Position numbers and translations under genes: made by a program
Shown: piece by piece, positions 13,323 to 17,562 of the stretch
Layout: the number at the start of each line of letters is the position of its first letter
Numbering within the stretch: the stretch's first letter is position 1
The notes under the pieces: generated by a model
What the model was told of the DNA's origin: nothing
Database searches by the model: none
Seen by the model: only the letters and a program-made list of their open reading frames with translations
Source: Clostridiales bacterium
Lineage (GTDB): Bacteria; Bacillota; Clostridia; Christensenellales; Aristaeellaceae
Assembly (NCBI GenBank): GCA_015056315.1
Contig: SVGN01000028.1
Span: 1-33,739, forward strand
Reading direction: 5' to 3'
Length of the DNA: 33,739 nt

Positions 13323-13751
13323 GGGGGCGGCACCCTCAGTCACCCTTCGGGTGACAGCTCCCTCTGAAGAGGGAGCCTTTAGGGGGAGAGCTTCGCCGAC
13401 AGCTCCCTCTGAAGAGGGAGCCTTTTGGGGGAAGGCTTCACCGACAGCTCCCTCTTGAAGAGGGTGCCGTGGTGAGGGGCGGGCGGATTTTGCTAAAGAG
13501 GGAGCTGTAGGTGGGGCTATGAGGGGCTTGATTCCCCACTTACCCCAAATGTAGAGTGGCTGGTCCTGATACCCACCCCCAACCGCAATGGGGGTCCGGG
13601 GTCTCCCCGGCGTGGGAAGAGGGTAAGGGATCCTTAAGGGGACAGGGAGACCGGTACGGGGTCTCCCTTCCCCTTAAGCCGCCGGAGGCATCCCCCGGAG
13701 ACACCCATTGTACATTCTCTGTCCCTCTCCCCCGGCTCAACACCTGTTTAC
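13323..13751. repeat. Triple dispersed hairpins and a 46-base palindrome
   Basis: Three double-hairpin copies stand in tandem at about 13328-13377, 13390-13427 and 13438-13468, the last diverged (CTCCCTCTTGAAGAGGGTGCC). Downstream, CTTAAGGGG (13633-13641) pairs with CCCCTTAAG (13670-13678) and inside it GGGAGACC (13645-13652) with GGTCTCCC (13660-13667), a long nested palindrome. No gene is seen. Confidence 0.8.
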
Positions 13752-13780
13752 TTGACACTGCAAGGTTTTTCCCTTACAAT
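13752..13780 (+). promoter_or_regulatory. Strong sigma-A promoter of the riboswitch-ATPase transcript
   Basis: TTGACA (13752-13757), a 17-base spacer and TACAAT (13775-13780). Transcription should begin near 13787, about 33 bases before the riboswitch. Confidence 0.85.
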
Positions 13781-13817
13781 ATCCTGTGGTATCCCAAAGA
13801 TGCCCAAATCAAGAAAA

Positions 13818-13906
13818 CTCTTGAGGGAGTAGTTCGCGCATAGCGTGGCCGGTCAACACACGGCCCCACCGGGGTCTGGCCTGCCGTAAAGAACGAGACT
13901 CAGGTA
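13818..13906 (+). ncRNA. yybP-ykoY manganese riboswitch aptamer
   Basis: The hallmark internal loop is present: GGAGTAG (13826-13832) after P1 arm CTTGAG (13820-13825), and on the 3' side ACGAGA (13893-13898) before P1 arm CTCAGG (13899-13904). Between them is a GC-rich helical region with GGCCGGTCA and GTCTGGCC. This matches the yybP-ykoY class, which binds Mn2+ and turns on export genes. The next gene is a P-type ATPase, as for Lactococcus yoaB, a known member of the class. Confidence 0.85.
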
Positions 13907-13947
13907 CGCGAGAAACCGTTTCTCCTGTGCCCGGGTTTTCTTTATTT
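13903..13947 (+). terminator. Riboswitch expression platform (terminator hairpin)
   Basis: GGTAC (13903-13907) pairs with GTGCC (13927-13931) and GAGAAA (13910-13915) with TTTCTC (13919-13924), followed by TTTTCTTTATTT (13936-13947). The left arm overlaps the 3' strand of aptamer P1 (CTCAGG, 13899-13904), so Mn2+-stabilised P1 and the terminator compete. This predicts transcription ON with ligand. Confidence 0.75.
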
Positions 13948-13966
13948 CAGAAAGGAGTTCGCTGAA

Positions 13967-16639
13967 ATGAAACCCTACCTTACCTCCCCCGAAGAGACCC
14001 TGAAGCAGCTGAATGCTTCCACCGAGGGTCTCTCCACTCAGGAAGCCGCTCAGCGCCTTGAGAAGCACGGCCCCAACAAGCTGGCCGAGGGCAAGAAGAC
14101 CACGCTGATGCAGCGCTTCCTCAGCCAGCTGGCCGACCCCATGATCATCGTGCTGCTGGTGGCGGCCGTGCTCAGCGCCATCACCTCCATCTACTCCGGC
14201 GAGGGCCTGACGGATGTGTTCATCATTCTGGCTGTGGTCATCCTCAACGCGGTGATGGGCGTGGTGCAGGAGAGCAAGGCTGAGGAAGCCATCGAAGCCC
14301 TCAAGACCATGACCGCCGCTACCTCCAAGGTAATGCGCGACGGTAAGCTCCACTTCCTCAAGAGCGAAGAGCTGGTGCCCGGCGATGTGATCCATCTGGA
14401 GGCAGGCGACTCCGTGCCTGCCGATGCCCGCATCATCGAATGCGCCAGCCTGAAGATCGAAGAAGCCGCCCTCACCGGCGAGAGCGTGCCCGTACAGAAG
14501 GAAGCCGACACCCTGGAGGGCGAAGAGGTGCCCCTGGGCGACCGCAAGAACATGGTCTACATGGGCTCCACCGTGGTGTACGGCCGCGGCAGCGCGGTGG
14601 TCACCGGTACGGGTATGAATACCGAAATGGGTAAGATCGCCGATGCGCTCACCCAGGCCGAAGACGAAGCCACCCCCCTGCAGCGCAAGCTGTCTGCCCT
14701 GAGCCGCATCCTTACCTGGCTGGTGCTGGGCATCTGCGTGCTCATCTTTGTGGTGGGCATCGTGCGCGAAGGCAAGCTGACCTTCGATGTGGCCATCAAC
14801 ACCTTCATGATGGCTGTTTCTCTGGCTGTTGCCGCCATTCCCGAGGGCCTGGCTGCGGTGGTCACCATCGTGCTTTCCATCGGCGTTACCAAGATGAGTA
14901 AGCGCAACGCCGTCATCCGCCGCCTGACCGCCGTGGAGACCCTGGGCTGCGCTCAGGTGATCTGCTCCGACAAGACCGGCACCCTGACCCAGAACCGCAT
15001 GACCGTTGTAGACAGCTACACCGCCGACAAGGCCCTGCTGGCCCGCGGTATGTGCCTGTGCTCCGACGCGGAGCCCGACGAGAACGACGAGGCCGTCGGC
15101 GAGCCCACCGAATGCGCGCTGGTCAACTTTGCCACCGCCGAGGGCCTGCGCAAGGCCGAGATGGTCAAGGAGACCCCCCGTATCGCCGAAGCGCCCTTCG
15201 ACAGCATGCGCAAGATGATGTCCACCCTGCACCGGACCGGCAGCAAGGTGACCCAGTACACCAAGGGCGCCCCGGACGAGATCCTGGCCCGCTGCACCAA
15301 GATGCTCACCGCCGAGGGCATCAAGCCCATGGAGCTCAGCGACAAGGCCGAGGTGATGGCCCACAACAAGGCCATGGCCGACAAGGCCCTGCGCGTGCTG
15401 GCCTGCGCCATGAAGGAATATGATGCCCTGCCCGGCAACGTTGACCCCGAAGCCATCGAGAACGAGCTGGTGTTCATCGGCCTGACCGGCATGATCGACC
15501 CCGTGCGCCCCGAGGTGAAGGACGCTGTGGACAAGTGCCGCGATGCGGGCATCCGCGCCGTGATGATCACCGGTGACCACATCGATACCGCCATCGCCAT
15601 CGCCCGGGATCTGGGCCTGCTCACCGAGCCGGATCAGGCCATCATGGGCAGCCGTCTGGACGACCTGACCGACGATGAGCTGGATATGGCCATCGAGCAC
15701 TACTCCGTCTACGCCCGCGTGCAGCCCGAGCACAAGGTGCGCATCGTGGATGCGTGGAAGCGCAAGGGCAAGATCGTTGCCATGACCGGCGACGGCGTGA
15801 ACGATGCCCCCTCCATCAAGGCTGCCGACATCGGCGTGGGCATGGGCATCACCGGTACGGACGTTACCAAGAACGTGGCCGATATGATCCTGGCAGACGA
15901 CAACTTCGCCACCATCGTATCCGCCGTGGAGGAAGGCCGGCGCATCTATGCCAACATCCGCAAGGCCATCCAGTTCCTGCTCTCCTCCAACCTGAGCGAA
16001 GTGATCGCCATCTTTACCGCCACCATGCTGGGCTTCACCATCCTGAAGCCTGCCCACATCCTGTGGATCAACCTGATCACCGACTCTCTGCCCGCTCTGG
16101 CCCTCGGCATGGAGCCCGGCGAAAGCGACAGCATGAAGCGCAAGCCCCGCTCCTCCAAGGCCGGTGTGTTCTCCGGCGGTGTGGGCGGCGACATCGCCTA
16201 CCAGGGCTTCTTTGTAGCTCTCATCACCCTGATCGCCTTCGCCATCGGCCACGCTATGGCCAACGGCGGCGTGCTGGGCTTCAACAACTGCGACAAGGGC
16301 ATGACCATGGCCTTCCTGACCATGAGCATGGCCGAGATCTTCCAGTCTTTCAACATGCGCAGCCGCCGCGGCAGCATCTTTACCATGAAGACCACCAACT
16401 GGTGGCTGCTGGGCGCGGGCGCAGCCGCTTTCGTGCTCACCCTGCTGGTGCTCTATGTGCCCTTCCTGCGCAACCTGTTCGGCTTTGAGCCCGTGGCCTT
16501 CGGCGAGTTCCTGATCGCTCTGGTGCTGGCTTTTGCCATCATCCCGCTGGTGGAGCTGGTCAAGTGGATCCAGCGCAAGACCGGCCACAGTGAGAAGGAT
16601 GAGGAAGAGAAGCAGAACGCCAAGGAGAACCTGAAGTGA
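13967..16639 (+). CDS. P2-type cation ATPase, probably Mn2+ exporting
   Basis: The 890-residue protein has the N-terminal cation-ATPase domain, actuator TGES (170-173), phosphorylated Asp335 in DKTGTLT, hinge TGDGVNDAP (607-615), M4 motif PEGL (292-295) and M6 NLITD (702-706). The M4 glutamate and M6 Asn/Asp are the ion ligands of P2A pumps of the SERCA/PMR1 group, many of which move both Ca2+ and Mn2+. Sequence alone would give calcium-transporting ATPase; the Mn2+ riboswitch in its leader suggests Mn2+ efflux. AAGGAG nine bases upstream sets ATG 13967. Codon use is strongly biased toward C-ending codons, a sign of high expression. The next gene overlaps its stop. Confidence 0.93.
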   Translation: MKPYLTSPEETLKQLNASTEGLSTQEAAQRLEKHGPNKLAEGKKTTLMQRFLSQLADPMIIVLLVAAVLSAITSIYSGEGLTDVFIILAVVILNAVMGVVQESKAEEAIEALKTMTAATSKVMRDGKLHFLKSEELVPGDVIHLEAGDSVPADARIIECASLKIEEAALTGESVPVQKEADTLEGEEVPLGDRKNMVYMGSTVVYGRGSAVVTGTGMNTEMGKIADALTQAEDEATPLQRKLSALSRILTWLVLGICVLIFVVGIVREGKLTFDVAINTFMMAVSLAVAAIPEGLAAVVTIVLSIGVTKMSKRNAVIRRLTAVETLGCAQVICSDKTGTLTQNRMTVVDSYTADKALLARGMCLCSDAEPDENDEAVGEPTECALVNFATAEGLRKAEMVKETPRIAEAPFDSMRKMMSTLHRTGSKVTQYTKGAPDEILARCTKMLTAEGIKPMELSDKAEVMAHNKAMADKALRVLACAMKEYDALPGNVDPEAIENELVFIGLTGMIDPVRPEVKDAVDKCRDAGIRAVMITGDHIDTAIAIARDLGLLTEPDQAIMGSRLDDLTDDELDMAIEHYSVYARVQPEHKVRIVDAWKRKGKIVAMTGDGVNDAPSIKAADIGVGMGITGTDVTKNVADMILADDNFATIVSAVEEGRRIYANIRKAIQFLLSSNLSEVIAIFTATMLGFTILKPAHILWINLITDSLPALALGMEPGESDSMKRKPRSSKAGVFSGGVGGDIAYQGFFVALITLIAFAIGHAMANGGVLGFNNCDKGMTMAFLTMSMAEIFQSFNMRSRRGSIFTMKTTNWWLLGAGAAAFVLTLLVLYVPFLRNLFGFEPVAFGEFLIALVLAFAIIPLVELVKWIQRKTGHSEKDEEEKQNAKENLK

Positions 16640-17562
16640 GCCGTTCCCTGAGGGCGGCGCTGCTGCTCCTGCTCACCGCCATGATCTGGGGCGCAGCCTT
16701 TGTAGCCCAGGACGTGGCCGCTGATGCGCTGGAGCCCTTCACCTTCAACGGTCTGCGTATGGTGCTGGCCGCCCTGACCCTTGTACCGGTGATCGCTTAC
16801 CGGCACGCACGGCAGTGCCGTGCAGCCGCTGCCGCACCCGCTGCGGAGCGGCCCGCCCTGCTGCCACATGACCCCGCCCAGCGGCGCTTTCTGCTGCTGG
16901 GCGGCCTTTGCTGCGGCGTGATGCTGGCGCTGGGCTCCGGCTTTCAGCAGCTGGGCATCAACGCCGGGGTGCAGGCGGGCAAGGCCGGGTTCATCACGGC
17001 GCTGTACATCGTTCTGGTGCCCCTGACCGGGCTGTTCTTCGGCAAGCGGCCCCAGCCGCTGGTGTGGCTGGCGGTGGTGCTCAGCGCCATCGGCCTGTAC
17101 CTGCTTTGCATGCAGGGCGGCTTTGTGCTGGAGAGCGGCGATGTGCTGCTCCTGCTCTGCGCCCTCAGCTTTACCGGGCACATCCTGGTGGTGGATCATG
17201 TAGGCGCAAGGGTGGACGGTGTAAAGCTCAGCTGCATCCAGTTCGCCGTTACGGCGGTCATCTGCCTTACCATTGCTGCCTTTACCGAACACCCCACCTG
17301 GGCGGATGTCAAGACCGCTGCCATCCCCATCCTGTATGCGGGCATCCTGTCCGGCGGCGTGGGCTACACGCTGCAGATCGTTGCCCAGAAGGATATCGAC
17401 CCCACCATCGCTTCGCTGATCATGTGCCTGGAAAGCGTGTTCGCCGTGCTCTTCGGCTGGCTGCTCCTTGGCGATGCCATGAGCCCCCGGGAGTATCTGG
17501 GCTGCGCCGTGATGATGCTGGGCATCCTGCTGGCGCAGCTGCCGGGGAGGAAGGAAGCGTAA
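16636..17562 (+). CDS. EamA/DMT-family transporter
   Basis: The 308-residue product has about ten hydrophobic segments in two EamA repeats (about residues 5-145 and 165-302), typical of drug/metabolite transporters such as RhaT/YdcZ relatives; the N terminus AMIWGAAFVAQ and the end ESVFAVLFGWLLLGD are characteristic. Substrate is unknown. The start is GTG 16636: it overlaps the ATPase stop as GTGA and AAGGAG lies eight bases upstream. It is therefore translationally coupled to the ATPase and under the same Mn2+ riboswitch, which may tie its substrate to manganese or metal stress. A strong terminator follows. Confidence 0.9.
   Translation: MSRSLRAALLLLLTAMIWGAAFVAQDVAADALEPFTFNGLRMVLAALTLVPVIAYRHARQCRAAAAAPAAERPALLPHDPAQRRFLLLGGLCCGVMLALGSGFQQLGINAGVQAGKAGFITALYIVLVPLTGLFFGKRPQPLVWLAVVLSAIGLYLLCMQGGFVLESGDVLLLLCALSFTGHILVVDHVGARVDGVKLSCIQFAVTAVICLTIAAFTEHPTWADVKTAAIPILYAGILSGGVGYTLQIVAQKDIDPTIASLIMCLESVFAVLFGWLLLGDAMSPREYLGCAVMMLGILLAQLPGRKEA

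Follow-up and report, generated by a model that had tools for sequence, protein, structure and literature searches.

We analyzed a 33,739-nucleotide (nt) stretch of DNA (the window; contig SVGN01000028.1 of a Clostridiales bacterium) in which a structured leader precedes genes for a P2A cation ATPase and an EamA transporter. The locus is a genuine Mn2+-type riboswitch operon, with a kind of control that is already known: a yybP-ykoY riboswitch very probably governs transcription of the two genes through a switch between its P1.1 helix and a terminator. The features of the locus, all on the plus strand, are as follows.

13752..13780: sigma-70-type promoter TTGACA-17-TACAAT (11/12 consensus matches)
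13817..13907: yybP-ykoY (Mn2+) riboswitch aptamer, three-way-junction form (81.6 bits with covariance model R1, minimum free energy fold, covariation in relatives)
13820..13825: 5' strand of the P1.1 switch helix (fold, covariation)
13825..13832: L1 core, 5' side, GGGAGTAG (motif read)
13853..13858: L3 core, TCAACA (motif read)
13894..13899: L1 core, 3' side, CGAGAC (motif read)
13895..13939: intrinsic terminator hairpin, T-rich tail to 13948 (fold, -20.1 kcal/mol)
13899..13904: 3' strand of P1.1, common to the terminator (fold)
13951..13957: Shine-Dalgarno (SD) sequence AAAGGAG of the ATPase gene (read from the sequence)
13967..16639: P2A cation ATPase, 890 amino acids (Pfam, NCBIfam, motifs)
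16622-16627: SD sequence AAGGAG of the EamA gene (read from the sequence)
16636..17562: EamA transporter, 308 amino acids, GTG start overlapping the ATPase stop (PF00892, 122 bits, two stretches)

Aptamer anatomy and conservation

Relatives of the leader were collected in two ways. R1 is a covariance model made from 17 aligned leaders (alignment A1), with the window included and the long L014 form excluded, so its score for the window is that of one of its own training sequences. Run with stricter filters, R1 found 96 copies in 73 of 150 family genomes, and 95 of these were examined (G031:C4 was left out). Separately, a pattern combining the two loop cores (L1 and L3) with the 3' strand of P1.1 matched at least 119 stretches in the species collection, the record titles being largely Clostridia (uncounted). 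ATPase homologues were found in all 150 family genomes, with the leader present at 18 of the 30 ATPase loci returned.

The locus has the L1 core of the class, GGGAGUAG, together with its 3' side CGAGAC and an L3 core containing the metal-binding adenosine. The latter, A13855, was placed by eye as the counterpart of A41 in Lactococcus lactis, which passages of PMC9190785 describe as binding metal. The ordered triple of motifs (L1 5' side, L3, L1 3' side) occurs once in the window and in none of 200 dinucleotide shuffles of it, and GGGAGTA of the L1 core is present in all 95 family copies read. The L1, L3 and 3' cores are also those of the Escherichia coli mntP leader.

Folded alone, 13817-13907 gives a three-way junction with the helices P1.1, P1.2, P2 and P3 (-32.5 kcal/mol); these helices around a multi-way junction are a feature of the class, present here in three-way form according to fold and covariation. 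The fold of the full leader (174 nt) is more stable than those of its shuffles (z -2.56; 2/200 were equally good). We measured covariation in 101 sequences, taken from 99 of the 119 pattern loci and the window; the loci had been selected for motifs of L1, L3 and the 3' strand of P1.1, and the sequences were aligned to the structure of the model, which favours the model. The 23 helix pairs are formed in 95.4% of cells (82.7% after shuffling and 25-47% with slid partners), both sides have changed in 291 cells versus 94 in shuffles, and the covariation score is 0.439 versus 0.187. None of 500 shuffles equalled the real alignment in paired cells, double changes or covariation score. Three L3-side "pairs" of the set are nearly invariant and probably belong to loop L3. 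Cores and covariation, with the terminator overlap and the regulon described below, support the yybP-ykoY riboswitch proposed in an earlier note on this DNA, in the three-way-junction form.

Terminator and direction of switching

The terminator hairpin, with a T-rich run behind it, includes the whole P1.1 3' strand, so that on folding the overlap reported by the earlier note is found again, and with it the competition between P1.1 and terminator that marks the expression platform of the class. A simple terminator scan listed 0 terminators; the hairpin appears when the region from the P1.1 3' strand through the T run is folded. Under a rule using a T-run pattern and at least three left-arm pairs, an arbitrary threshold, a terminator built on the P1.1 3' strand is found at 103 of 117 pattern loci among the matches listed and in 52 of 85 family copies; with shuffled tails, the counts are 30-39 and 11-21, respectively.

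The riboswitches of L. lactis yoaB and Xanthomonas oryzae likewise have both loop cores and a P1.1 3' strand common to the terminator, and passages of PMC6754395 and PMC11087558 describe Mn2+ there as stabilising P1.1 and blocking the terminator. Because the layout here is the same, the operon is most likely switched on by Mn2+; this direction, like the ligand and the transported ion, we infer from relatives. At low metal, the P1.1 3' strand would be drawn into the terminator, and transcription would end before the ATPase gene. Mn2+, and perhaps Ca2+ too, would bridge L1 and L3 and so hold P1.1 and block the terminator, allowing the ATPase and the translationally coupled EamA protein to be produced. 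The pump would then remove surplus divalent cation from the cell, most likely Mn2+ and probably also Ca2+.

Genes downstream of the RNA

The window's own genome has three R1 copies: that of the window, one (C81) before mntP (Pfam Mntp), and one (C5) before an operon for an SRPBCC-like and an ATC_hydrolase-like protein. A recognised gene lies downstream of 94 of the 95 family copies. The first gene encodes MntP in 45, a P2 ATPase in 25, a CitMHS-like carrier in 10 and a CaCA exchanger in 8; the remainder precede the SRPBCC/ATC_hydrolase operon (5), GDT1 (1) or no recognised gene (1). Among the 119 pattern matches listed, the first gene is a P2 ATPase in 51, MntP in 48, CaCA in 8, and TerC and GDT1 in 3 each, with none in 3 and a contig end in 3. 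Each label denotes the earliest tblastn match in a span of 1600 nt, some queries having been taken from these loci themselves, and the family names come from Pfam searches with individual members. In G004, mntP comes first after the RNA and the ATPase gene second.

For this class, passages of PMC13274385 list MntP, UPF0016/GDT1, P-type ATPase and TerC as the families of manganese efflux proteins, and they also note Vibrio vulnificus yrbG under the riboswitch. Position before manganese exporter genes is a class feature present here, with MntP, P2 ATPase, GDT1 and TerC. Clostridioides difficile CD2503 is, by its description in passages of PMC11477304, another Clostridial Mn riboswitch before a P-type ATPase gene.

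Some downstream genes encode other kinds of protein. The CitMHS-like carriers (for example, after G083:C17:2521-2611 and G051:C17:22823-22914; PF03600 in the one protein checked) follow RNAs whose L3 is UCAGCA, UCAUCA or UCAGUA in 8 of 10 copies, compared with YCAACA in 67 of 70 MntP and ATPase copies. We considered a new ligand for these variants and dropped it as unnecessary, since the alx leader of E. coli looks similar by eye (GGGAGUAAC, GUCAUUACG, GUGAGAC). At L016 (208-1470), a CitMHS-like gene lies directly 5' of an ATPase gene of the window type. A search of open-access literature returned no paper pairing yybP-ykoY with CitMHS or Faecalibacterium, which does not imply that the pairing is unpublished.

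The SRPBCC-like/ATC_hydrolase-like operon follows the RNA at L158:176-1521 (minus strand; the C5 copy of the window's genome), G084:C9, G115:C39, G143:C16 and G159:C11. The SRPBCC-like assignment is our own reading, made without a Pfam match, and its partner is PF14196. The G143 operon also encodes a DUF6796 protein, and in G059 an alpha/beta hydrolase gene comes first after the RNA. None of these proteins is a known exporter.

The EamA gene

The EamA protein matches PF00892 in two stretches that correspond to two EamA repeats, and its GTG start overlaps the ATPase stop, as the earlier note had described, by 4 nt. Coexpression with the ATPase is likely because of this overlap and the gene's own SD sequence. 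The note had further placed the EamA protein in the manganese response, of which the coupling by position stands, but neighbourhood with the ATPase is confined to 5 of 17 genus genomes (G000, G013, G084, G154 and G155).

On balance we favour the view that the EamA gene arrived late as a passenger, expressed together with the pump in this clade yet playing no part in metal export. A relative of EamA is found in all 17 genus genomes, 12 of which have no ATPase gene beside it in the flanks examined (up to 1.5 kb per side); in G156, the riboswitch and ATPase gene are on C38 and the EamA gene is on C53. Outside the genus, no fetched locus has both genes. The tight coupling by overlap and SD sequence, together with retention of the neighbourhood in five genomes, argues the other way. 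A local addition is nonetheless more likely than a part in manganese handling. The open-access literature search found no paper on a Mn riboswitch with EamA, which again does not imply unpublished status; PMC7266159 mentions both yybP-ykoY and EamA, but in its passages the EamA belongs to another riboswitch.

The ATPase and its ion

The features by which we assigned the pump to the P2A ATPases are all found: TGES, DKTGT, TGDGVND and PEGL, with the Pfam domains Cation_ATPase_N and Cation_ATPase_C. E1-E2_ATPase and the motif KGAPD are present as well, so the P2-type ATPase with catalytic motifs seen by the earlier note is secure. The highest NCBIfam scores, PMR1-type at 665.5 bits (cut-off 798.3) and SERCA-type at 656.7 (703.4), are both under their cut-offs, and PMCA-type TIGR01517 is just over its own (509.7 versus 507.05), which bears out the expectation that the pump would be named calcium-transporting. 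The closest solved relatives are LMCA1 (lmo0841; 699 bits) and SERCA1 (511 bits).

For the metal site we compared ten positions, which we take to be V304, A305, I307, E309, N768, E771, N796, T799, D800 and E908 in SERCA numbering. By alignment, the window pump is the same as SERCA at all ten; at E771 and E908 both carry E, in contrast to the A and R of LMCA1. The full SERCA-like set is present in 43 of 53 proteins compared, 31 with the leader and 12 without a leader found; this label reflects a sequence pattern in the stretch examined and is unsafe for L024, which has 117 nt upstream. The exceptions are L011, cut before the last position, L043, which differs in the last, and eight proteins of a second pump type. 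At these ten positions, no residues were found that mark a Mn2+-selective pump off from calcium pumps; the SERCA-like set occurs with and without the leader alike. The earlier note's statement that the pump probably exports Mn2+ is thus not established by its metal site, which is shared by the 12 homologues with no leader found. Export of Mn2+, or of both Mn2+ and Ca2+, is suggested instead by the regulation and by Streptococcus pneumoniae MgtA.

The S. pneumoniae system is close to that of the window. Passages of PMC11434433 and PMC9495176 describe the yybP-ykoY riboswitch of mgtA (formerly caxP) as Mn/Ca sensing, and it has, by description, a three-way-junction aptamer before a P-type ATPase gene; unlike the window operon, no EamA partner is mentioned in those passages. 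It is possible, though we think the chances are against it, that the window RNA senses both Mn2+ and Ca2+, that the pump, SERCA-like, mainly exports Ca2+, and that the operon is a defence against calcium and manganese overload. The ten identical site positions and the S. pneumoniae precedent agree with this, as do CaCA exchangers after the RNA in both collections (8/95 and 8/119). However, the commonest family target is MntP, a manganese exporter family (45/95), L3 retains the adenosine by which relatives select Mn2+, and the pump residues are compatible with Mn2+ too.

The second P2 ATPase type under the same RNA (L036, L053, L059, L065, L075, L091, L106 and L112) is about 35% identical and has the site VAVE-N(S/A)-NMD-(Q/H), in which NMD replaces NTD and S/A replaces E771. 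Two of the eight were run against NCBIfam, and both are PMCA-type by TIGR01517. Our working label for this type, YOABTYPE, was a guess that we have dropped; the two proteins are PMCA-type, and orthology to YoaB is unsupported. A broader proposal is that in these Clostridia one riboswitch class, driving P2A pumps with SERCA-like sites and PMCA-type pumps besides CaCA and CitMHS-like carriers, acts as a joint sensor of Mn2+ and Ca2+ overload, with the window pump a calcium exporter induced by either ion; we regard this as improbable.

Class membership

The anatomy, conservation, covariation and regulon of the RNA are direct observations. Several findings weigh against our interpretation of the locus as a Mn2+-type yybP-ykoY operon switched on through P1.1. 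The SERCA-like metal site is one. The fold of the window RNA has no P4 helix, unlike the L. lactis yoaB and X. oryzae riboswitches, which have a four-way junction with P4. The terminator rule is failed by 33 family copies, including those before mntP and the SRPBCC-like gene in the window's own genome. A passage of the review PMC11477304 names the class OFF switches; the anatomy here fits ON despite that label. R1 scores the E. coli mntP leader at only 15.6 bits (E 0.07), although at the correct place and with the cores aligned, and gives the alx leader 11.6 bits as its best match in a 301-base stretch with filters off, so that the link by model score to verified members is weak. Finally, RF00080 (the model used has 177 positions and a cut-off of 45 bits) finds nothing in the window at gathering, nothing on 13740-13990 at E<=10, and exceeds its cut-off in none of the 150 family genomes.

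The RF00080 search was the check that the earlier note had named, with the lack of a match as a refuting result. On the E. coli mntP leader (L033:962-1058), the model scores 41.6 bits, below cut-off, and the alx leader of strain K-12 (L034:2372-2503) was not detected at E<=10. Since these positive controls fall short, we read the miss here as a limit of the model and dropped RF00080 as a membership test; the copy used is a poor detector of the class. Its matches in the window's own genome are just two, weak and both elsewhere. Across the family genomes, 15 of its 18 weak matches (E<=0.01) coincide with R1 copies, which we take as support for class membership.

That the leader belongs to another riboswitch or attenuator class merely resembling yybP-ykoY would agree with the RF00080 miss and the low R1 scores on the E. 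coli leaders, but it is very improbable given the cores shared with E. coli mntP, the coincidence of weak RF00080 matches with R1 copies and the manganese-exporter regulon.

Other observations

Apart from the promoter, no promoter-like site was found in 13500-14100; the mean for shuffles is 0.1. Upstream of it, the intergenic region 13400-13520 contains short near-palindromes (AGCTCCCTC...GAGGG), one exact pattern of which is single in the genome by exact search. At L102:2029-2390 (minus strand; [Clostridium] asparagiforme), a tandem pair of RNAs, each seemingly with its own terminator (by eye), precedes a P-type ATPase gene. The pattern matches L112, L132, L088, L038, L084, L152, L091, L108 and L143 lie in records titled Methanimicrococcus, Alphaproteobacteria, Victivallales, Bacteroidales and Brachyspira, through either transfer or contamination of metagenome bins.

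Implications

The locus adds a well-supported Mn2+-type riboswitch operon in a family where RF00080 sees none (0/150 genomes, versus 73/150 with R1). The metal-site comparison poses the question of whether Mn2+, Ca2+ or both are transported by SERCA-type pumps that a manganese riboswitch controls. Furthermore, the CitMHS-like carriers and the SRPBCC-like/ATC_hydrolase operon suggest that the manganese response may include genes beyond the usual exporters.

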